The notes under the pieces are model-generated. The model made no database searches. It was not told the origin of the DNA and worked only from the letters and a program-made list of their open reading frames with translations. A program made the position numbers and the translations under genes. Source: Sedimentisphaerales bacterium (GTDB lineage Bacteria > Planctomycetota > Phycisphaerae > Sedimentisphaerales > SM23-30). From it: 64,000 nt of DNA. This document shows positions 18,052 through 62,089 of this stretch, one piece after another; position 1 is the stretch's first letter; the number at the start of each line of letters is the position of its first letter. The stretch covers positions 1 to 64,000 of the forward strand of contig JANQJS010000012.1 of assembly GCA_028281535.1 (NCBI GenBank), given 5' to 3'.

Positions 18052-18141
18052 ATAAGGCCAAGGAAGGCCGTCATAGTATAATAGATCACTAGGTAACGGT
18101 CTTTAGACCCTAACTTAAAAGGCAGGAAGTTGAGGTGATAC

Positions 18142-18390: not shown

Positions 18391-18410
18391 AAGGTTGATA
18401 GGATTGATGA

Positions 18411-20269: not shown

Positions 20270-20271
20270 AC

Positions 20272-20589: not shown

Positions 20590-20609
20590 CAACAAGATAC
20601 ACAGCAAAC

Positions 20610-22433: not shown

Positions 22434-22463
22434 AATTTTTTTTAATAATGACCGCTAGATTTA

Positions 22464-22491
22464 TTGCATATATAAGGAGTTAGGTTATAAT
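22464..22491 (+). promoter_or_regulatory. Internal promoter before murE
   Basis: TTGCAT (22464-22469) and a perfect TATAAT (22486-22491) are separated by 16 bp in the 103-bp gap between ftsI and murE. The -35 hexamer and spacer length equal those proposed before mraZ. It could give murE-ftsQ expression independent of MraZ. Confidence 0.65.
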
Positions 22492-22536
22492 GCCTGTTGT
22501 AGGGGCACGTAGAATGCAAATAGGTAGGATTAACCA

Positions 22537-24051: not shown

Positions 24052-24064
24052 GTGAAACTAAGTC

Positions 24065-25534: not shown

Positions 25535-25608
25535 TTTTATTATTGTTCGCCAACCTCTTTTTTAACCAATACCAATTTCAAACGTGCAAGTGGAACAGAT
25601 AGCCTGAC

Positions 25609-26742: not shown

Positions 26743-26755
26743 TAAATAGTATAAG

Positions 26756-29066: not shown

Positions 29067-29078
29067 TGTGGAGAAACA

Positions 29079-31380: not shown

Positions 31381-31426
31381 TGCAACTCAGATTAATAAGG
31401 AGTCATGACACTTTAGGTGAACAGGG

Positions 31427-36207: not shown

Positions 36208-39200
36208 ATGATTAACCAAATATGTCGGATGTCTGCCATTGCAATGTGTTGTTGCGTCATGGCTATGACAAGTAATTTGGCTCAGGGGCAACCCTCTGCT
36301 GTAGGCCAATGGGGAAGTCAGGTAAATACCACTCTTGATTTTTCTCATACGATTACGTTAAGAACGGGGAAAATTTTATCGATCTCTCATGAAGAGACTA
36401 TTTCGCAATTTATGACCTTTGATCCTGACAACTATGCAGGAACCGTCAATATCCAATCGATGCCGGCGACATTGCAGTGTGGTGGGCACTCAACTTTGGC
36501 CGATGGTCGATTTTTTATGTGTGGTGGTGAGAGCCTATCGATTCCTGATGCGGATGCCTTTGATCCCATCTCCGAAACCTGGAGTAGCTTACAACATATG
36601 AATCGTCCTCGCTGGTATCCACAGGCGATTATTTTAGGTGATGGACGTATTCTGGTTGCAGGGGGGATTAACTTCTCGACGGAACAACCAGAAAATACCG
36701 TCGAAATTTATGATCCGGATGCCAATACCTGGACCTTGCAGCCTGGACAAATGGCCTGGCAAGATGCTGATGAAGCTTATGTTCGTCTGCATTCCATGAT
36801 GGATGGTCGTGTATTTCAGTCGAGCCAGAACAGTCAATCTTATTGGTATACCGTCGGCGGTGGTTGGACACAAGGTCCAGTGAACGCTGTGAATCGTCGT
36901 TGGTATGCACCATCCATTCGTTTGATGAGTGCGACTGAAGATAGAATTATGTTAATTGGTGGTGCGTTAGGCGTCGATGGTGGTGGAGATTCAGCCAACT
37001 GTCAAATTCTTAACGCTGCAGGGACTTCCTGGCAAACCGTTGCTTCATTAAATAACGCTCGTGGTTTTAACCAAGCCATTCTTTTACCCGATGGTCGCAT
37101 TCTGACTGTAGGGGGACGAAATGGAACATCACGAAGTACTCCCGAATTGTATGATCCCGTCGCCAATACCTGGACATCAATGGCTACACATTGGCAAATC
37201 GATCCAGGAGGTGGTGAACACTTAGGTATTTGTATGACCGCAGATGGACGCGTTCTTTTGGGTGATGAAAATAAACCTGGTAAATACCAACTCTTTTCAC
37301 CTCCGAATTTATTTGCAGGCACGCGTCCTGTGATTACAAGTGCACCAACGGATGCCGGCTGGGGTGGCTCTATTAATGTTGGCTATACAACTTCTAATGG
37401 TATTAGTAGTGCCTGTTTGATTCGTCCCAGTGGTTCAACGCACGGTTGGAATTCTAACCAAATTGGTGTTCCTTTAACCATTACCAATGATACAGGCTCA
37501 TCATTAACATTAAGTGTACCCGCTAATAGCAATATGCTTCCTCCAGGTTATTATATGTTATACATTTTGGATAACAGCAATGTTTGGAGTGTATCTAGTT
37601 TTGTTAAAGTATCAGGTGTTGTTGCTGATACCGATCCTCCGACACCGAATCCAGCCACGTTTGCAACAGATCCGTTTGCAACAGGTCAAACATCTATCGA
37701 CATGGTCGCTACGGTTGGTAATGATGCGACAGGACCGGTTGAATATTACTTTGCAACTGGAGGTGGATCTGGTTCTTTGGATAGTGGTTGGCAAACCAGC
37801 ACATCTTATTCTGATACCGGATTGAGTTCAGGTGTTCAATATTGCTATACGGTTCAAATGCGTGATGCCGTGGGTACGCCTAATGTTGGTGGTGTGTCAC
37901 AGCAGAAATGTGCCCAAACTCAACTACCAAATCAAATTCCACCAACACCGAACCCAATGACCTGGGCAACTGTACCGACGGCAGCTGGAACCGATACCAT
38001 TAATATGGTAGCGAGCACAGCTACTGATGATCAAGGTGGAACCGTTACCTATTTCTTTGAAGAAACCACTGGTAATCCTGGTGCTGACAGTAGCATTTGG
38101 CAAACCTCAACGTCTTATAGTGACACTGGCTTACAAGGCGGTACCACGTTTTCCTATCGCGTCAAAGCGCGTGATCCGGAAGGTAACGAAACGGGTTTCT
38201 CAACGACCTTGTCGGCGAAAACAGATTTTGTCAGTGCGACATTAACACCTTATGTAGATGCTCTGCCTATTCCTCCAATCGCAACACCCACATCAGGAAT
38301 AAGTGGTGGGGTGGCTTCTTATACGATTTCCATGCAGGAATTCCAGGCTCAAGTTCACAGTGAACTTCCAGCCAACTCTACCACATTGTGGGGGTATGAT
38401 GGTATGGTGCCTGGTCCAACGATTGAAGCATCTGAAAACAATCAAGTTGATGTGACTTGGGTCAATGATTTGCGTGATACCAGCCAGGGCGGTAGTCCTT
38501 TGCGAACGCAACACTATCTTAGTGTAGATACCTGTACGCATGGTCCTGATATGTTTGGTGTCGCACCATACACGGTGGTTCACTTACATGGTACACACGC
38601 ACAGGCACAGTTTGATGGTTATCCAGAAGATATTTTCTATCCTGGTCAATCATCGATTGTTCATCAATATCCAAACTTACAAAATGATGGTACCCTCTGG
38701 TATCACGATCATGGTTTGGGAATAACTCGCTTAAACGTTTACATGGGATTGGCTGGTTTCTATATTCTTCGTGATCCAGCTCATACCTCTCTAAACTTAC
38801 CTAGCGGTGAATTTGAAGTGCCTCTGATGATGATGGACCGTACGATCAATGTGGATGGTTCTTTGGTCTATCCAGATGAGTGGCAACCACAATTCTTTGG
38901 TGATAAGATGTTGGTCAACGGTAAAGTCTGGCCTTTCATGAATGTGAAAAAAGGTAAATACCGTTTCCGCATGTTGAATGCAAGTGGATCTCGAGTACTT
39001 CGATTATCACTATCGAATGGTCATACATTCCATCAAATCGGTAGCGATGGTGGTTTGTTAGCAGCTCCTGTTGCTATGACCTCATTAACGTTAGGTAATG
39101 CGGAACGTGCCGATGTCGTGATCGATTTCTCTAGTTTCCCGACCGGAACAGAAATTGAACTGACCAACGATGCGGAAGCACCATTCCCAGGTACACCTGG

Positions 39201-42200
39201 TGTGGGTGTGATTCCGCAAGTCATGAAATTCATCGTGACAGCTGATACGGGTCATACTGCAGCTTTGCCATCAACTTTAGATACGTTGATTCCGATTCCA
39301 GAAGCTTCTGCATCGATTACCCGTGAGTTGCGTCTGCAGCAGGATACTAATCCAAGTTGTAGCAACAGTACGATTTTTACGATTAATGGTTTGATGTGGA
39401 ACGATATCACCGAACAGCCAATTCTTGGTGACACAGAAATTTGGAATTTTGTTAATACCACCGGAATGGTTCACCCGATGCACATGCACTTGGTGATGTT
39501 CCAGGTTCTTGACAGGCAAGCATTCTCAATTGTAGATAATGTCGTTGTGCCGCAAGGTTCACCAACGACCTTTGATCTGAACACCACCGGTTTTAAAGAT
39601 ACCGTCATGGTGATGCCAGGTGAGATGGTTCGTGTTATTGCGACCTTTACCGACTACTTAGGTAAGTTCCCATATCACTGTCATAACATCGAACATGAAG
39701 ATCATGAAATGATGCGTCAGTTTGAAGTGATTCCAGCACCGGATACACAAGCACCAACACCTGATCCTGCGACTTGGGCTACAGCTCCAGCACCACAAGG
39801 TGATCGAGTGATTGTGATGACAGCAACGACGGGTACGGATAATACGTCAGGGGTTCAGTATTTCTTTGAAGAAACCACTGGCAATCCTGGTGGAACAAAT
39901 AGCGGTTGGATCTTTAGTCCAACGTACTATGATTTTGATCTACAGCCGAACACGCTGTATTCCTATCGTGTGAAAATGCGTGACACGTCATCAAATTTAA
40001 ATGAAACACAATACTCAGGAGTTCTATCCGCAACCACCGGTGCATCTGATGGCAATATTGATATTGCTGCAGGTCCTGCACTTGCTTTTACTCCTGCAAA
40101 TATTGCGATTAATGTGGGCGAAACCGTTGAATGGACTTTCCAGTCAGGTGGTCATAATGTCATGGCAGGTGTTCCTGGTGTACATACTGGATACTTCCGA
40201 TCTGTGCCTCCAGGTAACAATGATGTCACCAACCCAATTGGTGCTACCTTCCTGGTGACGTTTGATCAAGCCTTCCTGAGTGCGAATCCAGGCGATGGCG
40301 GTGCATCTAATGTTTATAATTATCACTGTCATCCACACGGTGCAACGGCCGGTATGACCGGTACGATTACCGTGAATGGTGGTGCAACAAGTTCGATTAA
40401 ATTAGAAACCGGTGTGGTCAGCGGTGTTAGTAGCGGTTGGACCACTGTAAATTTGGGTAGCAGTTATAACTCTATGGTCGTCGTTACCACACCGAACTAT
40501 TCTAATACATCTTCTCCGGCTCATGTACGTATCCAGAATGCAACTGGCAATAGCTTCCAGGTGCGTGTTGATCCAGCTGGTCCTACGGCTGTCAGCAACA
40601 TTGATGTTTACTACATGGTTGTAGAAGAAGGTACCTACACCCAAGCTCAAGATGGTGTGACCATGGAAGCGGTGAAATACAATTCGACCCTGACGGATAA
40701 TAATAACTCATGGGTCGGTGAAACGCGTACCTATGCGAATACCTATACGTCTCCGGTTGTTTTTGGTCAAGTGATGACTTACAACGATCCTGGTCATGTG
40801 ACTTTCTGGTGTCAAGGTAGCTCGCGTCAGAATCCTCCTTCAGCGTCTGCATTGAAGACCGGTAAAACGGTTAACGAAGATCCTGACAATGCTCATGGTA
40901 ATGAAGTCATCGGTTACATTGTGATCGAATCAGGTAGTGGTGCACTTGACGGTGTTAACTACGTTGCTGGATTGGGTGCGGATACCATTCGTGGTGTGAC
41001 CAATGCTCCACCATATAGCTATAGTATCAGTGGTTTAACCAATGCTTCTAAAGGTATTGCATCGCTGAGTGCGATGGATGGTGGTAACGGTGGTTGGGCA
41101 ATCTTCTATGGCGCTAATCCCGTTTCATCTGGTGCGATCAATTTGGCAATTGATGAAGATCAAATAAATGACACCGAACGTGCACACACCACGGAACAGG
41201 TCGCTTACATCGTCTTTGAAGATGGTAGCGGCGGTGGTGACACCGTACCTCCAAGTGTACCGACGAATTTGGCATCACCTGCTCAATCGGATACGACGAT
41301 TGACTTGGCCTGGACCGCATCAACAGACAACGTGGGTGTGACTGGCTATGATATTCGTGTCGATGGCGGAAGCTCAATTGGTGTGGGGGCAGTGACCTCA
41401 CATACCCTAACCGGTTTAACGGCTAGTACCTCTTACTCGATTGACATTCGCGCGAAAGATGCAGCAGGAAATACCTCTGCTTACAGTAGTGCCATTAATG
41501 TTTCAACGCAAGCAGCAGCTGATACAACACCGCCGAATCCTGATCCTGCAGTGATTCAGTCGATTGTTGTAGATAGCGATACGCAAATTACCGTGACCGC
41601 TCAAACGGGAACCGATCCATCTGGTCCTGTTGAATATTCATTTGTTGTAACGTCAAGTGGTTCGGGTGGTTCGAATAGTGGATGGCAGGCATCAAACCCT
41701 GTTCATATAGATGTCGGTTTAGACCCCGGTACTGAGTATTGCTATACCGTTCAAATGCGTGATTCGGCTGGAGCTCAGAATACAGGTACTGCTTCTGGTC
41801 AATCTTGTGCCACAACAACAGGTGGCGGAGGTGGTTGTACCGTTCCAGATGTTTGTGGACTGACCCAAGCAGCTGCTGAATCAGCGATTACATCCGCTGG
41901 ATTGACATTTACAACGGTAACCTCTGCAAGTGACCTTGTCTTGTCTGGTAAAGTTGCAACGGCGTCACCGAATAGTGGTGCATCCGTGTCTTGTGGCAGT
42001 AATGTAACAATCACTGTTTCAACGGGACCAACCCAATCCTATAACCATACTTGGGTTTCTGGATGGGGTGACTTAAACATCAACTGCTGTTGGTCCAATG
42101 ATTGGTTCCCAGATGATGGTGCATTGTTTGGTGTATTCCAACCACCATTCCCACAACCGGATGATACATTACCGGTTACTGGTGGCAATAGTTTGTTGAT

Positions 42201-44370
42201 CAATGTGCCAAACACAACAGCAAAAACACGCAGCGGTGGTGATCCATTTGGTCAAACCGGTGTGGCTGTGGGTGAAACTTATTGGCGTCTTCCACAAACG
42301 CAAGCTGAATCCAATGCGGAAACAGCCCCTTGGTTCAATATCTCTGCGGATGAATCATCAGCTGGTCAGTTTAATGGTGGTCAAGTATCCATTAATATTA
42401 CGAGTGTAACGTCTCCATCTGGTTCTGGTACTGTTGGGTATTACACGAATCCGTCTACCTTTACCATGGCCTTTACTGAAGGTGTTGGTCAAACAGTTGG
42501 TTCATTCTTTATCTTAACAGGTGAAGCAAATACAGAAAATTATGGCAGCTTTACCTTTAGTGAACCTGGACTGTGGACCGTACAGATTACCATTGGTAAT
42601 CGAACTGGTGGTGGTGCCGATTTTGTGACCGACTTGAAGTTCCTGGTTGAAGCCAATAGCTGTGGTGGTGGATCGCCTCCAGGTGATACAACTCCGCCAA
42701 GTGTGCCAACCAATTTGGCCTCGCCTGCTCAAACGCAGACGACGATTGACTTAACCTGGACGGCATCGACAGATAATGTGGGTGTAACCGGTTATGATAT
42801 TCGCATCGATGGTGGTAGTCCTATCAGTGTGGGTGCTGTGACATCGCATACCTTAACCGGCTTAACCGCAGGTACAAGTTATGCGATAGATATCCGTGCA
42901 AAAGATGCCGCGGGCAATAACTCTGCTTACAGCAGTGCGGTTAATGTCTCAACGCAAGCAGCATCAGATACGACACCTCCGAGTGTGCCAACCAATTTAG
43001 CCTCACCATCTCAAACGCAGACGACGATTGACTTAACCTGGACGGCATCGACAGATAATGTGGGTGTGACCGGTTATGATATTCGTGTGGATGGTGGTAG
43101 TCCTATCAGTGTAGGTGCCGTGACATCACATACCTTAACCGGCTTAACCGCAGGTACAAGTTATGCGATAGATATTCGTGCGAAAGATGCAGCGGGTAAT
43201 AATTCTGCTTACAGCAGTGCAATTAATGTCTCAACGCAAGCTGCTGCGGATACGTCACCTCCGACGCCGAATCCCGCGACCTTCGCTTCGAATCCGGCTT
43301 CGACAGGTACCTCGTCGATTAGTATGACCGCGACGACGGGTAGTGACGCCACCGGGCCAGTTGAGTATTTCTTCACAGAAACCACCGGCAGACCTGGCGG
43401 AAGTAGTAGCATTTGGCAGACGTCGACGAGTTACACGGATACCTTGCTATCACCCAACACGGAATATTGCTATACCGTGACGATGCGTGATTCAGTGGGA
43501 ACGCCTAATGTCGGATCTGCATCTGCAGCATTATGTGCGACAACCGATCCATTGCCGGATACCACTCCACCGAGTGTGCCGACCAATTTGGCATCACCTG
43601 CTCAAACGGAGACGACGATTGATTTAACCTGGACAGCATCGACAGATAATGTAGGTGTGACGGGTTATGATATTCGTGTGGATGGTGGTAGTCCTATCAG
43701 TGTGGGTGCCGTCACATCGCATACTTTAACCGGCTTAACCGCAGGTACCAGTTATGCGATTGATATCCGTGCGAAAGATGCCGCGGGCAATAACTCTGCT
43801 TACAGCAGTGCGATTAATGTCTCGACGCAAGCAAGCAGCGGTTGTGGTACTGGTCAGCCTTACACTAACTTTGTGGGTGCCGGTAACGCACAAAATGTTG
43901 TCGCAACGGCCAGCAGTAATGATGGTTCTGCTAATGCAACGCAGACGATCAATGGCTCAGGTTTGTCAGGCAATACTCATGATGATGAGTGGGGTAATAC
44001 TTGGACCTCTGATGGTGACAATGGTAATCCTAATGCACCAAATCCAAACCCAGCTCGTGGAAATACTAACTGGATTTCTTATGACTTAGGTCATAGCTAT
44101 AAGTTGGGTCAAATGCAGGTTTGGAATGGTAGTGAGATTGCTTCTCGTGGTTTGAATTTGGTTTCAGTTGATTATTCAACCGATGGAACGAATTGGACCA
44201 CCATTGCTAATAATGTGAACTGGCCTCAAGCATCCAGTACCAACAATGGATTTAACGGTCCAGACTTTGCGGGTGTTTGTGCTCGATATGTTGTGATTAC
44301 CGTTCATAGTAATCATGGCAATGGCTTTGCTAATCAGTTAGCTGAGGTCAAGTTTAATATTGTTCCATAA
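36208..44370 (+). CDS. Giant secreted galactose-oxidase-like / multicopper oxidase / cupredoxin fusion
   Basis: This 2,720-residue protein has a signal peptide (to about 27) and a kelch propeller plus DUF1929-like domain (about 30-470) with copper-radical-oxidase residues Cys91, Tyr137 and His412. The usual axial Tyr is Glu337, before His338. Two FN3 domains follow (475-672), then a complete multicopper oxidase (675-1175): HLHGTH 792-797, WYHDH 831-835, HPMHMH 1089-1094 and HCHNIEHEDHEM 1157-1168. Next come FN3, a plastocyanin-like domain (1282-1392; His1316, Cys1374, His1377, Met1383), a beta-rich domain, FN3 repeats, PASTA, a possible surface-anchor-type domain, more FN3 and a C-terminal discoidin-like domain. 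AAAGGAAGTAGAG precedes the ATG. It lies downstream of the second sigma/FecR pair. Extracellular copper-dependent oxidation is likely; the substrate is unknown. Confidence 0.88.
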   Translation: MINQICRMSAIAMCCCVMAMTSNLAQGQPSAVGQWGSQVNTTLDFSHTITLRTGKILSISHEETISQFMTFDPDNYAGTVNIQSMPATLQCGGHSTLADGRFFMCGGESLSIPDADAFDPISETWSSLQHMNRPRWYPQAIILGDGRILVAGGINFSTEQPENTVEIYDPDANTWTLQPGQMAWQDADEAYVRLHSMMDGRVFQSSQNSQSYWYTVGGGWTQGPVNAVNRRWYAPSIRLMSATEDRIMLIGGALGVDGGGDSANCQILNAAGTSWQTVASLNNARGFNQAILLPDGRILTVGGRNGTSRSTPELYDPVANTWTSMATHWQIDPGGGEHLGICMTADGRVLLGDENKPGKYQLFSPPNLFAGTRPVITSAPTDAGWGGSINVGYTTSNGISSACLIRPSGSTHGWNSNQIGVPLTITNDTGSSLTLSVPANSNMLPPGYYMLYILDNSNVWSVSSFVKVSGVVADTDPPTPNPATFATDPFATGQTSIDMVATVGNDATGPVEYYFATGGGSGSLDSGWQTSTSYSDTGLSSGVQYCYTVQMRDAVGTPNVGGVSQQKCAQTQLPNQIPPTPNPMTWATVPTAAGTDTINMVASTATDDQGGTVTYFFEETTGNPGADSSIWQTSTSYSDTGLQGGTTFSYRVKARDPEGNETGFSTTLSAKTDFVSATLTPYVDALPIPPIATPTSGISGGVASYTISMQEFQAQVHSELPANSTTLWGYDGMVPGPTIEASENNQVDVTWVNDLRDTSQGGSPLRTQHYLSVDTCTHGPDMFGVAPYTVVHLHGTHAQAQFDGYPEDIFYPGQSSIVHQYPNLQNDGTLWYHDHGLGITRLNVYMGLAGFYILRDPAHTSLNLPSGEFEVPLMMMDRTINVDGSLVYPDEWQPQFFGDKMLVNGKVWPFMNVKKGKYRFRMLNASGSRVLRLSLSNGHTFHQIGSDGGLLAAPVAMTSLTLGNAERADVVIDFSSFPTGTEIELTNDAEAPFPGTPGVGVIPQVMKFIVTADTGHTAALPSTLDTLIPIPEASASITRELRLQQDTNPSCSNSTIFTINGLMWNDITEQPILGDTEIWNFVNTTGMVHPMHMHLVMFQVLDRQAFSIVDNVVVPQGSPTTFDLNTTGFKDTVMVMPGEMVRVIATFTDYLGKFPYHCHNIEHEDHEMMRQFEVIPAPDTQAPTPDPATWATAPAPQGDRVIVMTATTGTDNTSGVQYFFEETTGNPGGTNSGWIFSPTYYDFDLQPNTLYSYRVKMRDTSSNLNETQYSGVLSATTGASDGNIDIAAGPALAFTPANIAINVGETVEWTFQSGGHNVMAGVPGVHTGYFRSVPPGNNDVTNPIGATFLVTFDQAFLSANPGDGGASNVYNYHCHPHGATAGMTGTITVNGGATSSIKLETGVVSGVSSGWTTVNLGSSYNSMVVVTTPNYSNTSSPAHVRIQNATGNSFQVRVDPAGPTAVSNIDVYYMVVEEGTYTQAQDGVTMEAVKYNSTLTDNNNSWVGETRTYANTYTSPVVFGQVMTYNDPGHVTFWCQGSSRQNPPSASALKTGKTVNEDPDNAHGNEVIGYIVIESGSGALDGVNYVAGLGADTIRGVTNAPPYSYSISGLTNASKGIASLSAMDGGNGGWAIFYGANPVSSGAINLAIDEDQINDTERAHTTEQVAYIVFEDGSGGGDTVPPSVPTNLASPAQSDTTIDLAWTASTDNVGVTGYDIRVDGGSSIGVGAVTSHTLTGLTASTSYSIDIRAKDAAGNTSAYSSAINVSTQAAADTTPPNPDPAVIQSIVVDSDTQITVTAQTGTDPSGPVEYSFVVTSSGSGGSNSGWQASNPVHIDVGLDPGTEYCYTVQMRDSAGAQNTGTASGQSCATTTGGGGGCTVPDVCGLTQAAAESAITSAGLTFTTVTSASDLVLSGKVATASPNSGASVSCGSNVTITVSTGPTQSYNHTWVSGWGDLNINCCWSNDWFPDDGALFGVFQPPFPQPDDTLPVTGGNSLLINVPNTTAKTRSGGDPFGQTGVAVGETYWRLPQTQAESNAETAPWFNISADESSAGQFNGGQVSINITSVTSPSGSGTVGYYTNPSTFTMAFTEGVGQTVGSFFILTGEANTENYGSFTFSEPGLWTVQITIGNRTGGGADFVTDLKFLVEANSCGGGSPPGDTTPPSVPTNLASPAQTQTTIDLTWTASTDNVGVTGYDIRIDGGSPISVGAVTSHTLTGLTAGTSYAIDIRAKDAAGNNSAYSSAVNVSTQAASDTTPPSVPTNLASPSQTQTTIDLTWTASTDNVGVTGYDIRVDGGSPISVGAVTSHTLTGLTAGTSYAIDIRAKDAAGNNSAYSSAINVSTQAAADTSPPTPNPATFASNPASTGTSSISMTATTGSDATGPVEYFFTETTGRPGGSSSIWQTSTSYTDTLLSPNTEYCYTVTMRDSVGTPNVGSASAALCATTDPLPDTTPPSVPTNLASPAQTETTIDLTWTASTDNVGVTGYDIRVDGGSPISVGAVTSHTLTGLTAGTSYAIDIRAKDAAGNNSAYSSAINVSTQASSGCGTGQPYTNFVGAGNAQNVVATASSNDGSANATQTINGSGLSGNTHDDEWGNTWTSDGDNGNPNAPNPNPARGNTNWISYDLGHSYKLGQMQVWNGSEIASRGLNLVSVDYSTDGTNWTTIANNVNWPQASSTNNGFNGPDFAGVCARYVVITVHSNHGNGFANQLAEVKFNIVP
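41250..43830 (+). repeat. Near-identical fibronectin III coding repeats
   Basis: Four copies of a ~255-bp unit begin near 41255, 42700, 42985 and 43570. They share long identical stretches such as GACGATTGACTTAACCTGG and code for the same FN3 sequence (VGVTGYDIRVDGGSPISVGA). Four more copies lie in the 53831 gene (near 58880, 60305, 60590, 61345). The DNA identity points to recent duplication or gene conversion. Confidence 0.8.
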
Positions 44371-44767
44371 CGTTTAAACATACTTTTTTAGTTGCAGGGC
44401 CCTGGGGATCCGGGGCTCTGCATTTTTTATAAAATTAAGTGTCATGATAATGAAGATTAACAAAGTGTTACTAACAGAAAGGAGATACCTATTGGGCAAT
44501 CTGTTTTAGATAAGTGGTAAGCAACTAGGATATAAGAATCGATTAGTGTGTATGTTGATTGATTTTGGCAAGGTTACAATTACTTACCCTTTCATTACGA
44601 AAAGTAATCTTCCTTTACTTGAATCCTACCATGCTCCTTGATGGTCGATGGGGCATACTTTTTCACTTATGACTAATGCTCAGAAGCTACCTAGCAAGAC
44701 AACAATGTATAAGTGCGTTTTTTGAAGTGGTGTAAATATAATTTCAAGTTAACAAGGAATTGTGAGT
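44371..44767. other. Spacer between giant and compact oxidase genes
   Basis: After the terminator at 44393, this stretch has no gene. It contains TTAGTGTGTATG at 44543, one of several such motifs near these genes, and a second hairpin, ATGCTCC (44630-44636) with GGGGCAT (44649-44655), followed by a T-rich run. Confidence 0.5.
44393..44428 (+). terminator. Terminator of the giant oxidase gene
   Basis: TGCAGGGCCCT (44393-44403) pairs with GGGGCTCTGCA (44412-44422) through 11 bp including G-T pairs, then six T residues. The stem resembles the hairpins after the stop codons at 49583 and 62127. Confidence 0.8.
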
Positions 44768-49549: not shown

Positions 49550-49957
49550 TTTATAAAAAATAAAGTTATACACACTTTCTTAATTGGCAGAGTCCTGTTT
49601 TTGCAGGGCTTTGCCAATGCATAAAAAGAAAGTTAAAAATTTAATTAATCATTTAGGTTTTTTGTGCTCTGTCAGGACACACTAGTTTTTTCCTGGCAGA
49701 GCAACTTATACAACTTGGAGAACTGGAGAAAACGAATTTGTCAATCTATATAAAAATAGTGTGTATAGGTCGAAATAATTCAACTCCTTCAAGATAAAAA
49801 TGATAGAGAAATAAACAACGGAATAATGTGTGTGTGTTGTTTATGTTAATTTGGTACCCCTTGATGTTAATCGTAGCATCAAGATCCTTATCTTGATTGG
49901 TCCCTGTAACAATCAGGAGTTTGGAGAAAATGAAATTACAGGACATGGAGAAACATT
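49550..49957. other. Spacer with three stem-loop/inverted-repeat elements
   Basis: It contains TATACACACT (49567-49576) and its inverse AGTGTGTATA (49758-49767). A 15-bp hairpin at 49583-49618 lacks a T-run. An 11-bp hairpin (GCTCTGTCAGG 49666-49676 with CCTGGCAGAGC 49692-49702) has a T-rich loop. ATGTGTGTGTGTTG lies near 49825. No gene is convincing. Confidence 0.6.
49583..49618 (+). terminator. Post-stop hairpin of the compact oxidase gene (no U-tract)
   Basis: ATTGGCAGAGTCCTG (49583-49597) pairs with CAGGGCTTTGCCAAT (49604-49618) over 15 bp with two G-T pairs. The missing T-run makes it an atypical terminator or an RNA-stability element. Confidence 0.55.
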
Positions 49958-51601: not shown

Positions 51602-51709
51602 TTTCATTTTTATTTAAATAATAATGAAGAATTAAAATGTCATAATCTCATCCATGTTCGGCAAAGCTGAACAGGTGAGAGGAGAAAATATAAATTGGAG
51701 ATACATAAC

Positions 51710-53239: not shown

Positions 53240-53267
53240 GTTTATTATTTTAAGAATCTTTTATTTG

Positions 53268-53301
53268 GGATGTCGCAATAATTTTGCGACATCCTTTTTT
53301 T
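53268..53301 (+). terminator. Strong rho-independent terminator
   Basis: GGATGTCGCAA (53268-53278) and TTGCGACATCC (53284-53294) are perfectly complementary with a 5-nt loop, followed by a T-run. It lies 28 bp after the tandem dockerin genes. Confidence 0.92.
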
Positions 53302-53518
53302 ATATACTTTTATTTTACAAGGTATTACGGCAATCTTGACTGCGGGGTAATAAAATATTTAAAAAATTTTTTCCAATTTATTGTCTAGCTAACGAACCCT
53401 TTGTAAGTAGACTTTGTGGTCTATTAATAGTTGTTTTGTCGATTATTTTAGGCTGTGTCGTTTTAAGTTAAAACATCTACAGTGATGTTATAAATCGATA
53501 AGGATAATTCAATTTGAT

Positions 53519-53558
53519 GTTTGATCGCTTCCATTGATTATCCTGGCAAACAAATAGG
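53519..53558 (+). repeat. Copy 3 of the ~40-nt dispersed intergenic repeat
   Basis: TTGATCGCTTCCATTGATT and GCAAACAAATAGG match the complementary strand of 35854-35893. It lies about 270 bp upstream of the second giant gene. Confidence 0.7.
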
Positions 53559-53830
53559 TATGACTGAAATCATTTTAATTTTAGAACAAACAATTTCTTA
53601 AATATCAACTGCAGCCAAGCAGTGCGATAGTGTGTGATGTATGTGGAAATTTTATCAACAATTCTATTTAAGTTTTGGGAGATCGGTATGACATTAAATT
53701 AGTGTTAATGTGAACTGTGTTTTTTTTATCAACATAAAAGACAAAAAGGTCTGTTTATCTTGATAGAAGCGGAAGTGGTGTTTAAAAAGTTAGAAGTGTT
53801 AGTCATTGAATTTATGAAAGGAAGTAGAGT

Positions 53831-56800
53831 ATGAATCACTTTATAAAACAAAAGATATTTATCACTCTGTTGTTATGTTGCATGTTTATTTCAGGCAAAT
53901 ATGCTATGGGACAACCATCAGTTGTTGGCCAATGGGATCCCGTTCAAAATACAAGTTTGGATTTTTCGCATACCGTGCAATTGAAGTCTGAAAGAGTTCT
54001 AACGTTATCTCATAACGGTGCTCAATACATGACGTTTCATCCAAGTAATTTTAGTGGAACCGTTCAAATCAGCTCAGTTCCTAAATTTTTTATGTGTGGT
54101 GGTCATTCCACGATGGCTGATGGAAAATTCTTCCTCTGTGGTGGTGAAGATCCCACTGATGATCACAATGATGCTGGTTACTTTGATCCCGACACAGAAA
54201 CTTGGCATCTTCTACCTTCAATGACTCAACATCGATGGTATCCTCAGACCATTATTCTGGGTGACGGGCGGCTTTTAATTTATGGCGGATACAATTTTAG
54301 CGCTGAAAGAAATGAAAATGTTGAAATTTATGATCCTGTTGCCAATACTTTTACTGCGTTACCTGGAAACATTCCTTGGCAGCATGAAGAATCCTATCTT
54401 CGTATCCACTCTATGATGGATGGCCGTATTTTTCAATCATCCCAGATCAATCAATCATACTGGTATACTGTCGGTGGGGGCTGGACACAAGGTCCTGTTA
54501 ACGCGGTAAGTACGCGTTGGTATGCACCTTCCGTTCGCTTAATGAGTGCGACAGAAGATAGAATCATATTGATTGGTGGTGCTTCAGGGGTCGATGGTGG
54601 TTCAGGCAGTTCAAATTGTCAAATTCTAAATGCAGCTGGTACTGCATGGGATACTGTTGCTTCATTGAATCATGCTCGTGGATTTAATCAAGGTATTCTT
54701 CTACCTGATGGAAAAGTCATTACCATTGCCGGTCATAGCGGAACTGCAAAAACAACACCTGAATTGTATGATCCTGTCAATAATAACTGGACCGTGTTAC
54801 CACCACATCAAGGTAGCTCAGGTACAGGTGATCACTTGGGTATGGTCTTGTTATATGATGGTCGTGTCCTGTATGGTTCAGATCAAACGACTGGTGGAAG
54901 CGGAACCAATTCATTTTTCCAAATTTACAATCCAGCTTATCTTTATACTGGTTCTCGCCCAACGATTGACAGTGTTCCTGCCGATGCTGGATGGGGTAGC
55001 TCAATTAATGTGGGTTACACATCAGCCAATGGCATTAGCTCAGCAGTACTTTTAAGGCCTTCCGGTTCAACCCACAGTTGGCATGCTAACCAGATTGGTG
55101 TACCTTTAACGATTACCAATGATACTGGAAGCAACTTGACATTGAGCGTACCAGCTAACAGCAACATGCTGCCTCCAGGGTATTATATGCTTTTCATTTT
55201 GGATAATAATGGAGCACCTAGTGTCTCTAAATTCGTTAGAGTCTCTGCTGCTGTTGCTGATACGACTGCTCCAACACCGAATCCAGCACAATTCTCAACA
55301 GTACCATTTGCGACTGGTCAAACCACAATCGATATGGTGGCAGATGCCGGTAGCGACGCAACACCTCCAATTGAATATCTCTTTACTCGTGATGGTGGAG
55401 CAGCTACAAGTAATTGGATTCAAACACCCTCATGGCAAGATACTGGTTTAAGTCCAGGAGTGCAATATTGCTACACTGTACAAATGCGTGATTCTGCTGG
55501 TACCCCAAACGTTGGTGGAGTATCTTTGCAAAGTTGTGCAACGACAAATTTACCAAACCAAAACCCACCCACGCCTAACCCAATGACTTGGGCAAGTGTT
55601 CCCGTCGTAAATACAGCAGGTAATCCAACATCAGAAATTACCATGCAGGCTTCTCTGGCAACCGATGATCAAGGTGGTCAGGTCCAATATTTCTTTGATG
55701 AAACCACCAGTGGTACCACATTCGATAGTGGTTGGCAAACGGGTACAACGTATACGGCAACTGGTTTAACACCTGGAACGACCTATACATTCCAAGTCAA
55801 AGCGCGTGACCCCGAACTGAATGAAACGGGGTTATCAGCTCCTGGATCTGCTAAAACGGATTGGGTGAGTGCGACCTTGACACCTTACTTGGATGCACTG
55901 CCGATTCCACCGATTGCAACACCAACCAGTGGTACAAGTGGTGGTGTCGCCAGCTATACGATTACCATGCAGGAAGTCCAGGCTCAGGTACATAGTCAAC
56001 TGCCTGCAACGACCCTGTGGGGATATGATGGTATGGTCCCTGGTCCTACTATTGAAGCTTCCGAAAATAATCAAGTGGATGTTACTTGGGTCAATGACCT
56101 GCGTGATACGAGCCAAACGGGTTCACCACTTCGTTTAAATCACTATTTGAATGTTGATACCTGTACTCATGGACCGAATATTTATGGTACCGCACCTTAT
56201 ACAGTGGTTCACTTACATGGTACCCATGCTCAAGCACAGTTTGATGGTTATCCTGAAGATATTTTCTATCCAGGGCAATCCTCGATTGTTCACCAATATC
56301 CTAACTTACAGAATGATGGTACCCTTTGGTATCATGATCACGGTTTAGGTATAACACGTTTGAACGTTTATATGGGACTGGCTGGTTTTTATATCCTTCG
56401 TGATCCTGCTCATGCAGCATTGAACCTACCGAGTGGTGAATATGAAGTACCTTTGATGATGATGGATAGAACATTTAATGTGGATGGTTCTTTGGTGTAT
56501 CCAGATCAATGGACGCCACAATTCTTTGGTGACAAAATGTTGGTTAACGGTAAAGTTTGGCCTTTCATGAATGTCAAGAAAGGTAAATACCGTTTCCGTA
56601 TGTTGAATGCCAGTGGTTCTCGTGTGCTTCGATTATCATTGTCGAATGGCCATACGTTCCATCAAATTGGTAGTGATGGAGGTTTATTAGCTGCACCTGT
56701 ACCGATGACACAAATTACTTTAGGTAATGCTGAACGTGGGGATGTTGTTATTGACTTCTCTAGTTTTGCAACCGGTACGGAAATCCTATTGACCAATGAT

Positions 56801-59800
56801 GCCGAAGCACCATTCCCTGGTACACCAGGTGTAGGCGCGATTCCGCAAGTCATGAAATTTATCGTGACCGCCGATACCGGTCATACAGCCGCTTTACCTT
56901 CTACGTTAGATACTTTAGTACCCATTCCAGAAGCGTCTGCGTCGATTACACGTGAGTTGCGTTTGCAGCAGGATACGAATGCGTCTTGTAGCAATAATAC
57001 CATTTTTACGATCAACGGTTTGATGTGGAATGATATTACTGAGCAGCCTATTCTTGGCGATACTGAAATCTGGAATTTTGTGAATACCACCGGTATGGTT
57101 CATCCAATGCACATGCATCTGGTGATGTTCCAAGTGCTTGACAGGCAGGCATTTTCAATTGTGGATAATGTTATTGTTCCACAAGGATCACCAACAACCT
57201 ATGATTTGAATACCACAGGTTTCAAAGATACTGTGATGGTGATGCCGGGCGAGATGGTACGTGTGATTGCAACCTTTACCGATTATCTCGGTAGATTCCC
57301 TTATCACTGCCATGTTATCGAACATGAAGATCATGAAATGATGCGTCAATTCGAAGTGGTACCTGCTCCTGATACACAAGCTCCGACACCTGATCCGGCA
57401 ACATGGGCAGTTAATCCAGCAGCACATACAGATACATCGATAGTGATGACCGCATCAACCGGAACGGATAATACAGCCGGTGTTCAATACATGTTTGAAA
57501 ACATCACAGCAGGAACCAACAGTGGTTGGGTCTTTGATCCCGTTTACTATGATTTCAATTTACAACCTAGTACGATGTATACCTATCGAGTCAAGATGCG
57601 TGACACCTCATCTAATCTCAATGAAACAGCTTGGTCAACGACGACGCCATCTGCTACAACTTTGGCTTCAGATGGTAATATCGAAGTTAACGTAGGTGGA
57701 ACCGGGATTAATTTTACACCTGCTGATCTTCAGATTAATGTGGGTGAAACCGTTGAATGGGTGTTCCAGTTCCCTGGCCATAATGTGATGGCAGGGCTGC
57801 CAGGTGTGCATACCGGTTACTTCATGTCGATTCCTATGGGCAATCCGGATGTGACCAACCCGGTTGGGCATGTGTTTACGCATACCTTTGATCAGGCCTT
57901 TTTGAGTTCAAGTCCTGGCGATGCGGGTGCTCCAAACGTTTATAATTACCATTGTCACCCACACGGCCAATCCGCGGGTATGGTAGGTACGATTACCGTC
58001 AATGGTGGTATCACGAGTACCATTAAATTGGCGAAAGGTGTTGTTTCGAATGTCAGCAGCACAGGCTGGACAACCGTGAACTTGCCTTACACTTATACCT
58101 CGATGGTGGTTGTCGCGACACCTAGTTATGATAACACTTCAGCACCGGGTCACGTACGTATCCAAAATTCAACCGGCAGCAGCTTTGATGTTCGTCTTGA
58201 CGGATCAGCAGCCGCGCCAAGTGCATCTGATGTTTACTACATGGTCGTTGAAGAAGGCGTTTATACACAAGCTAGCGATGGTGTTACCATGGAAGCTGTG
58301 AAGTATAACTCGACCTTGACAGATAATAACAATTCCTGGGTTGGTGAAACGCGAGCCTATGCGAATAGCTATACGAGTCCTGTTGTTCTTGGCCAAGTGA
58401 TGACTTACAACGATGCAGGGCATGTGACTTTCTGGAGTCAAGGTACTGCACGTACCAATCCTCCGATTAGCTCAGCATTGAAAACAGGTAAAACGGTTAA
58501 CGAAGATCCTGACAATTCACATGCCAATGAAACGATTGGTTATATTGTGATTGAAGCAGGAAGTGGCAGCTTAGATGGCGTTGGTTATGTTGCTGCCGTC
58601 GGTGCAGATATCGTTGCAGGGGTGACCAATGCACCACCATATGCTTATAGTCTATCTGGTTTAACGAGTGCTTCAGTTGGTGTTGTTACGTTGACTGCTA
58701 TGGATGGTAACAATGGTGGTTGGGCTGTTCTCTATGGCGCTAGTCCTGTATCTGCTTCAACATTGAACCTTGTTATTGATGAAGATCAACTAGGTGATAC
58801 TGAACGTAGTCATACAGCTGAACAAGTCGCTTATATTGTCTTTGAAGACGCTGGCGGTGGTGGTGACACTGAGGCACCTAGTGTACCAGCTAATTTGGCA
58901 TCGCCATCACAAACACAAACGACGATTGACTTAACCTGGACCGTATCGACAGACAACGTGGGTGTGACTGGTTATGATATTCGTGTCGATGGTGGAAGTC
59001 CAATTGGTGTGGGGGCCGTGACATCTCATACCTTAACCAGTTTGACGGCCAGCACGTCTTACGCGATTGATATTCGCGCGAAAGATGCAGCAGGAAATAA
59101 TTCTGCCTATAGCAGTGTGATTAATGTCGCAACGGATGCAGATGCGACACCTCCGAATCCTGATCCTGCAGTGATTCAGTTGATTGTCGTGGATAGCGAT
59201 ACGCAAATTACAGTGACGGCTCAAACGGGAACCGATCCATCTGGTCCTGTTGAATATTCATTTGTTGTAACGTCAAGTGGTTCAGGTGGTACGAATAGTG
59301 GATGGCAGGTATCTAACCCCGTTCACGTCGATTCCGGCTTAACCCCTGGCACTGAGTATTGCTATACCGTTCAAATGCGTGATTCAGCTGGAGCTCAGAA
59401 TACGGGTACCGCATCTGCTCCGTCCTGTGTGACAACCACAGGTGGCGGTGGCGGTTGCACCGTTCCAGATGTTTGTGGATTGACCCAGGCAGCTGCTGAA
59501 GCGGCGATTACATCCGCTGGTTTGACATTTACAACAGTGACGGCTGCGAATGATATGGTACTAGCTGGTAAAGTAGCAACAGTTTCACCAAATGCAGGTG
59601 ATTCGGTTTCTTGTGGTAGTAATGTGATATTGACTGTTTCGACAGGCCCAACGCAATCTTACAGTCATACATGGGTATCTGGCTGGGGTGATTTGAACAT
59701 TATCTGCTGCTGGGGTAATTCCTGGTATCCAGATGATGGCACCAATGCTGGTGTCTTCAATCCCCCATTCCCTGGTGGTGAATTACCAGTAACAGGTGGC

Positions 59801-62089
59801 AATAGTCTCTTGATTAATGTACCAAACACTACTGGTCAAGTACGCATAGCTGGCGATGCATTTGGTCAAACCGGTGTTGCAGTGGGTGAAACGTTCTGGA
59901 GATTACCTAATAACGCTACCGATGCTACAGCTGAGAGTGCACCATGGATGAATATCTCTGCGGATGAATCTTCTGCAGGTCAATTTGTCGGTGGTCAGGT
60001 CTCTATTAATATCACGTCTGTCACCTCACCTTCAGGTTCTGGTACCTGTTCTGTCTACTCGAGTCCTTCGACCTTTATCAATGCTTTCACTGAAGGTGTT
60101 GGTCAGACGGTAGGACCATACTTTATCCTGACGGGTGAAGCCAATGGCGAAAATTATAATCACTTTGCCTTCAGCGAACCTGGTCTGTGGACTGTTCAGC
60201 TTACCATAGGTAATCGATCAGGTGGCGGTGCAGATTTTGTAACTGACTTGAAATTCCTGGTTGAAGCCAATAGTTGCGGTACTGGCAGCGGTGGTGATAC
60301 CACACCTCCAAGTGTACCAACCAGTTTGGCATCACCGTCTCAAACGCAAACGACGATTGACTTAACCTGGACCGCATCTACAGATAATGTGGGTGTGACC
60401 GGTTATGACATTCGTGTGGATGGTGGTAGTCCAATTAGTGTGGGTGCCGTGACGTCTCATACTTTAACCGGATTGACGGCGGGTACTTCTTACGCGATTG
60501 ATATCCGTGCGAAGGATGCGGCGGGCAATAACTCTGCTTACAGCAGTGCGATTAATGTCTCAACGCAATCCGTGCCGGATACCACGCCTCCAAGTATACC
60601 AACCAATCTGGCATCACCGTCTCAAACACAAACGACGATTGATTTAACCTGGACCGCATCTACAGATAACGTCGGTGTGACTGGATATGACATTCGTGTG
60701 GATGGTGGTAGTCCAATTGGTGTGGGTGTCGTGACGTCTCATACCTTAACCGGTTTGACAGCCAGTACCTCTTACTTGATTGACATTCGTGCCAAAGATG
60801 CAGCGGGTAATAACTCTGCTTACAGTAGTACGATTAATGTTTCAACACAGTCAGGTGGTGGCGGTTGTGATGTGATTATTAGCGATGATTTCGAAGCCGG
60901 TAACTTTGGTAATTGGGTCGATGGCGGTACGGATTGTGTCTTGCATAATGGAGTTAACTCACCACAAGGTAGTTACTCGGTTGATCTGCAGGACGATACG
61001 GCAACATCACATACCCGAACCAACAACTTGAATCTATCGTCCTATCAAAATGTTCAGGTTGACTTTAGTTATAATCCGATCAGCTTTGAAGGTAGTGAAG
61101 ATTTCTTCCTTGAAGTCTCAACGAATGGTGGCGGTAGTTGGATCGTTCTTAAACAGTATGTCAACGATGTTGATTTTGTAGATACCGCAGGGCCACAGAC
61201 AGATTCTGTTACCTCTTCTGGTGTGAGTTTAACCAGTACGACGCAAGTTCGTTTCCGTTGCGATGCTTCAGGTAATGGTGATGATGTCTACATTGATGCC
61301 ATTACGGTGTCAGGTTGCGGCAGTGGTGGCGGTGGTGGTGACACCACACCTCCAAGTGTACCAACTAATCTGGCATCACCGTCTCAAACACAAACGACGA
61401 TTGATTTAACCTGGACCGCATCTACGGATAACGTCGGCGTGACCGGTTATGATATTCGTGTCGATGGCGGTAGCCCAATCGGTGTCGGAGCAGTGACATC
61501 TCATACCTTGACTGGTTTAACCGCAGGCAGCTCATACTCGATTGAAATTCGTGCCAAAGATGCTGCAGGTAATAACTCTGCTTACAGTGGTGCGATTGTT
61601 GTTTCAACGCAATCCGGTGGCGGTGGTACTGGGCCAATTACTATTACGAACTTTAGTTTCGAACAGCCAGGTACTGGTTCTGAAGTGACTAATTGGAATA
61701 ACATTCCTGGTTGGAGCCTCTCTCCAGCAACGGATTCAGGTATTAGTAGCAATGATGGTGGTACCAATGGGACATGGACGGCATTCATCGCGAATGCTGA
61801 TGGGTTTGTAACCCAAACCACGGGTCATACGATTTCTGCAGGAACCTACCAAGTGCAGATTGATGCTAAAGAGTCAGGAACGCTGCAAATAGAATTATTC
61901 TATGGTAGTACGACCATTGGCAGCCAGTCATTTTCAGTGAGTTCTGGGTTTACAACGAAAACACTCAACGTCACGGTGAATGGTGGTGACCCTGCGATTG
62001 GCCAAACGTTAGGTGTGCGTTTCCAGAATTCGGCATCTGGTGAAACCTGGACCGTTGTTGATAATGTACGTGTAACGAAAACCAATTAG
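53831..62089 (+). CDS. Second giant galactose-oxidase-like / multicopper oxidase / cupredoxin fusion
   Basis: This 2,752-residue paralogue of the 36208 protein is highly similar up to about residue 2,100. The signal peptide is followed by the propeller unit with Cys89, Tyr137 and His415; the axial Tyr position holds Asp334 before His335. Two FN3 domains, a full multicopper oxidase (HLHGTH 794-799, WYHDH 833-837, HPMHMH and HCHVIEHEDHEM), FN3 and a plastocyanin-like domain (GHNVMAG; YHCHPHGQSAGM) come next. The tail differs: FN3, PASTA, the same possible anchor-type domain, FN3, a MAM/jelly-roll-like domain (ISDDFEAGNFGNW), FN3 and the C-terminal beta-sandwich of the 44768 protein. AAAGGAAGTAGAG precedes the ATG. 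Swapped tails indicate domain shuffling between neighbours. Confidence 0.88.
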   Translation: MNHFIKQKIFITLLLCCMFISGKYAMGQPSVVGQWDPVQNTSLDFSHTVQLKSERVLTLSHNGAQYMTFHPSNFSGTVQISSVPKFFMCGGHSTMADGKFFLCGGEDPTDDHNDAGYFDPDTETWHLLPSMTQHRWYPQTIILGDGRLLIYGGYNFSAERNENVEIYDPVANTFTALPGNIPWQHEESYLRIHSMMDGRIFQSSQINQSYWYTVGGGWTQGPVNAVSTRWYAPSVRLMSATEDRIILIGGASGVDGGSGSSNCQILNAAGTAWDTVASLNHARGFNQGILLPDGKVITIAGHSGTAKTTPELYDPVNNNWTVLPPHQGSSGTGDHLGMVLLYDGRVLYGSDQTTGGSGTNSFFQIYNPAYLYTGSRPTIDSVPADAGWGSSINVGYTSANGISSAVLLRPSGSTHSWHANQIGVPLTITNDTGSNLTLSVPANSNMLPPGYYMLFILDNNGAPSVSKFVRVSAAVADTTAPTPNPAQFSTVPFATGQTTIDMVADAGSDATPPIEYLFTRDGGAATSNWIQTPSWQDTGLSPGVQYCYTVQMRDSAGTPNVGGVSLQSCATTNLPNQNPPTPNPMTWASVPVVNTAGNPTSEITMQASLATDDQGGQVQYFFDETTSGTTFDSGWQTGTTYTATGLTPGTTYTFQVKARDPELNETGLSAPGSAKTDWVSATLTPYLDALPIPPIATPTSGTSGGVASYTITMQEVQAQVHSQLPATTLWGYDGMVPGPTIEASENNQVDVTWVNDLRDTSQTGSPLRLNHYLNVDTCTHGPNIYGTAPYTVVHLHGTHAQAQFDGYPEDIFYPGQSSIVHQYPNLQNDGTLWYHDHGLGITRLNVYMGLAGFYILRDPAHAALNLPSGEYEVPLMMMDRTFNVDGSLVYPDQWTPQFFGDKMLVNGKVWPFMNVKKGKYRFRMLNASGSRVLRLSLSNGHTFHQIGSDGGLLAAPVPMTQITLGNAERGDVVIDFSSFATGTEILLTNDAEAPFPGTPGVGAIPQVMKFIVTADTGHTAALPSTLDTLVPIPEASASITRELRLQQDTNASCSNNTIFTINGLMWNDITEQPILGDTEIWNFVNTTGMVHPMHMHLVMFQVLDRQAFSIVDNVIVPQGSPTTYDLNTTGFKDTVMVMPGEMVRVIATFTDYLGRFPYHCHVIEHEDHEMMRQFEVVPAPDTQAPTPDPATWAVNPAAHTDTSIVMTASTGTDNTAGVQYMFENITAGTNSGWVFDPVYYDFNLQPSTMYTYRVKMRDTSSNLNETAWSTTTPSATTLASDGNIEVNVGGTGINFTPADLQINVGETVEWVFQFPGHNVMAGLPGVHTGYFMSIPMGNPDVTNPVGHVFTHTFDQAFLSSSPGDAGAPNVYNYHCHPHGQSAGMVGTITVNGGITSTIKLAKGVVSNVSSTGWTTVNLPYTYTSMVVVATPSYDNTSAPGHVRIQNSTGSSFDVRLDGSAAAPSASDVYYMVVEEGVYTQASDGVTMEAVKYNSTLTDNNNSWVGETRAYANSYTSPVVLGQVMTYNDAGHVTFWSQGTARTNPPISSALKTGKTVNEDPDNSHANETIGYIVIEAGSGSLDGVGYVAAVGADIVAGVTNAPPYAYSLSGLTSASVGVVTLTAMDGNNGGWAVLYGASPVSASTLNLVIDEDQLGDTERSHTAEQVAYIVFEDAGGGGDTEAPSVPANLASPSQTQTTIDLTWTVSTDNVGVTGYDIRVDGGSPIGVGAVTSHTLTSLTASTSYAIDIRAKDAAGNNSAYSSVINVATDADATPPNPDPAVIQLIVVDSDTQITVTAQTGTDPSGPVEYSFVVTSSGSGGTNSGWQVSNPVHVDSGLTPGTEYCYTVQMRDSAGAQNTGTASAPSCVTTTGGGGGCTVPDVCGLTQAAAEAAITSAGLTFTTVTAANDMVLAGKVATVSPNAGDSVSCGSNVILTVSTGPTQSYSHTWVSGWGDLNIICCWGNSWYPDDGTNAGVFNPPFPGGELPVTGGNSLLINVPNTTGQVRIAGDAFGQTGVAVGETFWRLPNNATDATAESAPWMNISADESSAGQFVGGQVSINITSVTSPSGSGTCSVYSSPSTFINAFTEGVGQTVGPYFILTGEANGENYNHFAFSEPGLWTVQLTIGNRSGGGADFVTDLKFLVEANSCGTGSGGDTTPPSVPTSLASPSQTQTTIDLTWTASTDNVGVTGYDIRVDGGSPISVGAVTSHTLTGLTAGTSYAIDIRAKDAAGNNSAYSSAINVSTQSVPDTTPPSIPTNLASPSQTQTTIDLTWTASTDNVGVTGYDIRVDGGSPIGVGVVTSHTLTGLTASTSYLIDIRAKDAAGNNSAYSSTINVSTQSGGGGCDVIISDDFEAGNFGNWVDGGTDCVLHNGVNSPQGSYSVDLQDDTATSHTRTNNLNLSSYQNVQVDFSYNPISFEGSEDFFLEVSTNGGGSWIVLKQYVNDVDFVDTAGPQTDSVTSSGVSLTSTTQVRFRCDASGNGDDVYIDAITVSGCGSGGGGGDTTPPSVPTNLASPSQTQTTIDLTWTASTDNVGVTGYDIRVDGGSPIGVGAVTSHTLTGLTAGSSYSIEIRAKDAAGNNSAYSGAIVVSTQSGGGGTGPITITNFSFEQPGTGSEVTNWNNIPGWSLSPATDSGISSNDGGTNGTWTAFIANADGFVTQTTGHTISAGTYQVQIDAKESGTLQIELFYGSTTIGSQSFSVSSGFTTKTLNVTVNGGDPAIGQTLGVRFQNSASGETWTVVDNVRVTKTN

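Follow-up and report, generated by a model that had tools for sequence, protein, structure and literature searches.

Giant secreted proteins of a planctomycete that join an altered galactose-oxidase-like unit, a laccase-type multicopper oxidase and a cupredoxin

Here we report two giant proteins, P0001 and P0002, encoded in the window (the whole 64,000-nucleotide stretch of Sedimentisphaerales DNA that was analysed), each of which carries in one chain a galactose-oxidase-like (GO) unit, a complete CotA-type multicopper oxidase (MCO) and a plastocyanin-like cupredoxin. They belong to a set of four such fusions, a derived clade in a family of about 31 paralogs, of which nearly all have GO and cupredoxin modules but no MCO. 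The axial tyrosine of the GO copper site is replaced by aspartate or glutamate in the MCO-bearing copies only. Each module was already known and it is their combination that is new. Our preferred reading, held tentatively and given slightly less than an even chance, is that a laccase-type MCO was grafted onto an older GO-cupredoxin chassis, giving secreted oxidases that are probably bound to carbohydrate and in which the MCO now forms the centre of an electron relay.

Results

Architecture of the fusion proteins

The reading frames of P0001 and P0002 are intact (Table 1), and every catalytic module that the initial annotation had proposed from the letters of the sequence scores above its curated Pfam cut-off in both proteins (GO-like_E_set, Kelch, Cu-oxidase_2/_3 and Copper-bind), as do fn3 and PASTA. 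The Pfam order is kelch repeats with GO-like_E_set, FN3, Cu-oxidase_3/_2, FN3 and Copper-bind, followed by further FN3 domains, one PASTA domain and a terminal domain that is of the F5/8 type C in P0001 and HpiC1-like in P0002. The adhesive modules described earlier are therefore largely in place, namely FN3, PASTA and the discoidin (F5/8 type C) domain of P0001, but the P0002 tail that had been called MAM-like scores as HpiC1-like. Domains, fold and ligand residues together support a secreted single chain with several copper sites. A module of ∼290 aa follows the cupredoxin in both proteins (window 40387-41274 and 58013-58899); it has no Pfam match, similar stretches occur in loci L171 and L020, and the AlphaFold model of the first copy, built from three sequences only, has a pLDDT of 37.

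Table 1. Features of the window discussed in the text (window positions; aa, residues of the encoded protein).
Feature	Position	Strand	Residues or length	Remarks
P0004	1..2841	-		runs off window; canonical GO site and cupredoxin, no MCO in covered part
FecR/LamG protein, directly upstream of P0004	3038..4729	-
ECF sigma factor, P0004 locus	4738..5289	-
ECF sigma factor (TIGR02989), upstream of P0001	33553..34086	+
FecR/LamG protein, directly upstream of P0001	34050..35834	+		one membrane segment, aa 159-177
P0001	36208..44370	+	2720 aa	signal-peptide-like N terminus, GO unit, FN3 x2, MCO, FN3, cupredoxin, FN3/PASTA/F5-8C
P0001 GO unit	36280..37617	+	aa 25-470	C91, W136, Y137, H338, H412 kept; axial Tyr replaced by E337
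P0001 FN3-like linkers, two	37618..38247	+	aa 471-680
P0001 CotA-type MCO, complete	38248..39762	+	aa 681-1185	H792/794, H833/835, H1089/1092/1094, H1157-C1158-H1159, H1163, M1168
P0001 plastocyanin-like cupredoxin	40042..40389	+	aa 1279-1394	H1316, C1374, H1377, M1383
P0001 PASTA domain	41839..42024	+	aa 1878-1939
P0001 F5/8 type C (discoidin) domain	43903..44331	+	aa 2566-2708
P0003	44762..49549	+	1595 aa	canonical GO site and cupredoxin, no MCO, four PASTA
P0002	53831..62089	+	2752 aa	module order as in P0001; C-terminal HpiC1-like (MAM-like) domain
P0002 GO unit	53903..55246	+	aa 25-472	C89, W136, Y137, H335, H415 kept; axial Tyr replaced by D334
P0002 CotA-type MCO, complete	55883..57391	+	aa 685-1187
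P0002 cupredoxin	57665..58015	+	aa 1279-1395	H1317, C1375, H1378, M1384

The multicopper oxidase and the cupredoxin

CotA-type laccases match the MCO of P0001 from end to end (1.9e-105 for 7z5p and 1.3e-104 for CotA, 1gsk). The ten His and the single Cys of the four copper motifs are present in P0001, P0002 and both other fusions, the type-1 axial Met is M1168 in P0001 and M1170 in P0002, and the module has full three-domain length, aligned over 3-496 to CotA-type chains; the copper motifs claimed for both proteins were thus found in full. The module has the length, the copper ligands and the axial Met of laccases of the CotA and bilirubin oxidase type; CotA itself is a separate protein, whereas the fusion MCO is embedded in a 2700-aa chain. 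Against the PhsA and CueO equivalog models the fusion MCOs do not reach the cut-off. MCOs of the CotA/laccase type reduce O2 to water with four electrons, which they take up at the type-1 site.

The cupredoxin of P0001 aligns with plastocyanin on its Cys, second His and Met ligands, with the first His present too, and the complete His, Cys, His, Met set occurs in all four fusions, in agreement with the type I site assigned to both proteins at the outset. For the photosynthetic plastocyanin equivalog TIGR02656 the two proteins score 34.4 and 37.8 bits, below its cut-off of 87.85. In several paralogs without an MCO, for example P0004, the alignment places His at the axial Met position or shows the Met to be missing, and the potential of their type-1 sites may therefore differ.

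Between the four fusions the MCO is the most conserved module (88-93% protein identity, dN/dS 0.04-0.07) and the GO unit the most changed (55-72%, 0.14-0.22), the cupredoxin showing 68-84% identity and a dN/dS of 0.05-0.23; all of these dN/dS values are rough, as synonymous sites are near saturation.

The galactose-oxidase-like unit and its axial tyrosine

In sequence searches, the P0001 GO unit hits GlxA (4unm) at 2.6e-36, with galactose oxidase following at about 1e-30. Its AlphaFold model (pLDDT 91.7, pTM 0.92, with 33 sequences in the alignment) superposes on galactose oxidase (1gof) with a Z of 48.2 and an rmsd of 2.0 over 432 residues, and on 4unm with a Z of 47.3. Pfam and the 1gof superposition agree on a seven-bladed kelch propeller with an E-set, so that structure prediction recovered the galactose-oxidase fold. 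The initial annotation had described this unit as a kelch/DUF1929 copper radical oxidase: the fold holds, with GlxA match and model behind it, but the canonical site does not, the axial Tyr being Glu337 in P0001 and Asp334 in P0002.

In galactose oxidase, Tyr272 is cross-linked to Cys228. The copper ligands of that enzyme are Tyr272, the axial Tyr495, His496 and His581 (PMC4513209), and, according to a recent structural paper, AA5_1 and AA5_2 share the same conserved first-shell residues (PMC13094651). Judged by residues, the cross-link Cys and Tyr, the stacking Trp and the two His ligands are kept in all four fusions. The counterpart of Tyr495 is absent from each of them (Asp in three, Glu in one), in contrast to its presence in 27/27 GO domains of the same genome without an MCO and in 38/38 GO domains from outside. 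The complete set of Cys, Trp, Tyr, axial Tyr and two His is found in 26 of these 27 paralogs; in a truncated copy (L030:6992-8401) the stretch with the Cys is missing. Only 18 columns are invariant among 33 aligned GO sequences; the Cys, Trp, Tyr and both His, which make up five of the six residues of the site, fall in these columns. The alignment also shows the cofactor Cys in GO domains L200-L203.

GlxA of Streptomyces lividans (PDB 4UNM) is the closest sequence match of the GO unit and shares its fold. The Trp-Tyr pair of the fusion sites is that of GlxA and of fungal glyoxal oxidase, with W288 of GlxA standing directly before the Cys-linked Tyr (PMC13094651). The GlxA chain has, as far as known, neither an MCO nor a cupredoxin, whereas the fusions have both, together with Asp or Glu in place of the axial Tyr, and the GO units score 138.9 and 136.6 bits against a cut-off of 800 for the GlxA equivalog NF052501. 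Because the axial Tyr is replaced, the four fusions are, on their residues, not to be filed as canonical copper radical oxidases of the AA5/GlxA kind, and we conclude from the same residues that their GO site would no longer work as a canonical peroxide-forming radical oxidase. The loss of the Tyr is a single event in one clade, and its tie to the MCO rests on at most two independent fusions.

These observations bear on two further readings of the GO unit. The initial annotation allowed for peroxide passing between the copper sites, which would call for a canonical copper radical oxidase producing H2O2 for the MCO or for the polymer. The GO fold, the Cys, the Tyr and the two His are indeed present, but the axial Tyr of such an H2O2-forming site is lost in exactly the MCO-bearing copies, and to our knowledge H2O2 is not a normal substrate of MCOs, which leaves this cascade very improbable. 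Alternatively, the propeller may be a dead enzyme kept as a glycan- or copper-binding scaffold, with the MCO acting alone as a laccase or metal oxidase on outside donors and the cupredoxin a relic of the chassis. Loss of the axial Tyr in all four fusions, faster evolution of the GO unit than of the MCO and the carbohydrate-binding-like tails would all fit such a scaffold, which we nonetheless consider unlikely, since five site residues and the full cupredoxin ligands survive in every fusion despite the low GO identity, and these same five residues are among so few invariant columns.

The paralog family and its neighbouring genes

The genome (4.44 Mb, 67 contigs, 99% complete), which the nearest relatives of the MCO place in the Planctomycetota and probably in the Phycisphaerae, holds 31 GO-like E-sets. 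This count may be off by a few, given several copies cut by contig ends and some pairs that hardly differ. Four of them sit in GO-MCO-cupredoxin fusions, so the two giant proteins first described are both real and the number was too low; the other two are on contigs C17 (2947 aa) and C39, the latter cut by the contig end. The same cupredoxin is carried by nearly all 31 GO frames, the exceptions being L039:6435-10139, where none was detected, and L030, a GO-cupredoxin paralog that is itself split over two frames. This last paralog (L030:5169-8401, minus strand) lies in two overlapping frames; it is either a pseudogene, or its frameshift is an error of sequencing. Contig C6 encodes a stand-alone MCO of the fusion type.

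Contig ends cut several paralogs and one carries a frameshift, so the family does trouble the assembler, and the fusions might have arisen by artefactual joining of separate genes. This explanation was rejected, and its probability is negligible: the same open architecture recurs at four loci on three contigs, with 88-93% identity in the MCO and strongly diverged, nearly saturated synonymous sites.

For most GO genes (22/31), the gene directly upstream encodes a FecR/LamG protein or a form of it that includes an ECF domain, in most cases itself preceded by an ECF sigma gene, so each GO copy may have its own surface-signalling switch. FecR matches number 29 in the genome, and not every one adjoins a GO gene. 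The single membrane segment in the FecR/LamG protein upstream of P0001 makes a sugar-sensing anti-sigma role a reasonable assignment for it. At L039 and L046 the ECF domain is found inside a protein of ∼760 aa. The stretch separating P0003 from P0002 (49958-53239) encodes two secreted proteins that are Calx-beta-like and have dockerin-like C termini. The window also contains an mra/mur/fts cell-wall gene cluster (17518-32371) that adjoins the GO genes, cluster and GO genes being probably chance neighbours.

Origin of the fusions

In a quick tree of GO domains, the 30 domains analysed from this genome form one clade (SH-aLRT 96), within which the four MCO-bearing domains form a nested clade with a support of 100. 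Paralogs of the same genome that have GO and cupredoxin but no MCO (L025 and L028) branch outside this nested clade, and a single MCO insertion into a GO-cupredoxin ancestor is therefore the simplest reading of the tree. The MCO tree places the stand-alone MCO of the same genome as sister to the four fusion MCOs (100), next to mostly Phycisphaerae sequences, and a distant donor was rejected on this ground. The stand-alone MCO is 66% identical to that of P0001. MCOs of Phycisphaerae and Myxococcota (about 800-1100 aa) belong to the same subfamily, with up to 59% identity, but have an N-terminal region of about 300-400 aa and lack a GO unit or the family cupredoxin. The simplest history would thus run from a GO-cupredoxin ancestor through expansion in the lineage and insertion of the host's own MCO to duplication of the fusion.

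Distribution and parallels in other genomes

A GO-like E-set is absent from all 12 other genomes of the family, and any such domain occurs in only 27 of 392 sampled genomes of the phylum, mostly as one or two copies. No frame joining GO to an MCO or to a cupredoxin was found in 20 GO loci of the phylum, in 80 GTDB loci with the closest MCOs, which were reached via two MCO peptide patterns, or in 26 of the closest-MCO genomes searched whole. For 347 genomes of the class, with two candidates scored in each and FN3 matches crowding the results, the query genome alone gave an end-to-end match to the GO-to-cupredoxin profile among the matches listed. Additional Bacteroidota GO genes yielded no further MCO fusion. 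The survey for the same domain order proposed in the initial annotation therefore came back empty, and a widespread GO-MCO-cupredoxin architecture was rejected for the phylum GO loci, GTDB MCO loci, whole genomes and class genomes sampled. What these searches establish is rarity and not uniqueness, because they sample genomes and are limited by their patterns. Among the open-access papers searched we found none describing GO-MCO, GO-cupredoxin or GO-MauG fusions, which is weak evidence of absence, and the main text of two Planctomycetota CAZyme/genome surveys makes no mention of AA5 or galactose oxidase.

That such copper enzymes normally act as separate proteins, as the initial annotation had it, holds for nearly everything sampled, with two kinds of exception. 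The first is a Lewinellaceae MAG in which a 1110-aa frame (L183:3-3332, minus strand), reaching the contig end, places a different MCO in front of a GO unit. The MCO motifs read from its sequence are HSFHTH, WPFHDH, HNFHPH and HCHVHHHMKNGM, with Pfam Cu-oxidase_3 and _2, and in its GO unit the cofactor Cys aligns with Ser, the sole such change in 38 outside domains, with the axial Tyr kept. It resembles the four fusions in that a complete set of MCO motifs shares its frame with a GO unit whose site is altered; it differs in its reverse order, its other type of MCO, the loss of the Cys instead of the axial Tyr and its position outside the 31-copy clade. The two MCO fusions now known, the second of them a single frame in one MAG, have, to judge from alignment, each lost one radical-site residue.

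The second kind joins a GO unit with a canonical site to a downstream CCP_MauG domain, in L171:3543-9986 of a planctomycete and L175:5207-13078 of a verrucomicrobium, both on the plus strand. By their domain matches, these proteins join a copper radical oxidase covalently to a partner that resembles a haem peroxidase. A Bacteroidota GO protein (L185:6820-14322, plus strand), with a 2501-aa frame and two CxxCH motifs, is probably also a GO-MauG or di-haem fusion. Like the four fusions, the proteins of L171 and L175 tie a GO unit to a one-electron redox domain in one chain; unlike them, they have haem instead of copper in the partner and a canonical GO site, and no cupredoxin motif was found in them. 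Together with the Lewinellaceae protein they mean that GO units have been joined to one-electron redox partners more than once. Loci L176-L179 are also among the giant GO proteins of Planctomycetota, Verrucomicrobiota and Bacteroidota.

Discussion

Copper radical oxidases have an inactive, non-radical resting state, from which a one-electron oxidant is needed to bring them into action; a fungal tandem peroxidase activates its partner oxidase by close contact (PMC9770985), and glyoxal oxidase is reactivated by peroxidase and ABTS (PMC10928124). The fungal pair of AlcOx and tandem peroxidase, in which a copper radical oxidase likewise has a dedicated one-electron partner, differs from the fusions in its canonical oxidase site and in having as partner a haem peroxidase that is a protein of its own, whereas the fusions carry copper partners in the same chain (PMC9770985). 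In the 27 paralogs without an MCO, the cupredoxin is probably a built-in one-electron partner that would switch on the Tyr radical or keep it on, as the peroxidase does in the fungal system.

For the four fusions, an inserted MCO and a GO site without its key tyrosine suggest that the laccase took over the reaction with oxygen. In our preferred reading, an electron relay centred on the MCO, that module would be the oxygen-reducing end, with four electrons going to water. The altered GO site would still bind copper without running the canonical two-electron, H2O2-forming radical cycle, and would either feed electrons out one at a time or have become a copper- or glycan-binding scaffold. The cupredoxin would link the type-1 copper of the MCO to the GO site, or to outside donors, by carrying one electron at a time. 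Several lines of evidence argue for this relay: the full ligand sets of MCO and cupredoxin, the GO fold with five of six site residues kept, the loss of the axial Tyr only where an MCO is present, the strong constraint on the MCO, both trees, the lost radical-site residue (the cofactor Cys) in the only other MCO-GO fusion found, and the need of copper radical oxidases for a one-electron activator in vitro (PMC9770985, PMC10928124). Against it, the flexible FN3 linkers may keep the copper sites far apart, when electron transfer calls for distances of about 15 angstroms or less, and the Asp or Glu might still serve as base and ligand. A more specific form, in which the host's own MCO entered one of about 30 GO-cupredoxin proteins and the carboxylate-bearing GO site became a dehydrogenase that hands single electrons through the cupredoxin to the laccase and on to water, oxidising glycans or alcohols without peroxide release, is unlikely as a complete scheme.

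The linkers can also be taken to mean that no electrons are exchanged at all. Independent modules acting on one polymer are found in many multimodular carbohydrate-active enzymes, and the fusions might similarly hold an altered copper enzyme and a laccase on one anchor, each working on a different part of the polymer. The length of the FN3 linkers, the several adhesive domains and the existence of stand-alone relatives of each module are consistent with this arrangement; the cupredoxin, however, is no carbohydrate module, keeps its full ligands in all four fusions and accompanies the GO unit in nearly all paralogs, and we regard independent action as distinctly unlikely. The MCO-centred relay is accordingly favoured over both independent modules and a dead GO scaffold, with a peroxide cascade disfavoured.

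Little is settled about how copper radical oxidases become active in nature and which one-electron partner activates them, the separate peroxidase of fungi being one answer. Chains that combine a GO unit with a cupredoxin, an MCO or, in other genomes, a di-haem MauG domain make this question testable by separating the domains. The exchange of the axial Tyr for a carboxylate in MCO-bearing copies only amounts to a natural experiment on a position that has been reported to be conserved throughout the characterised AA5 enzymes. Should the dehydrogenase form of the relay prove true, glycans or alcohols would be oxidised without the release of peroxide, in a one-chain extracellular electron relay. 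More broadly, about 31 copies, most of them behind their own FecR/LamG and ECF genes, point to a large unexplored oxidative system in one planctomycete.
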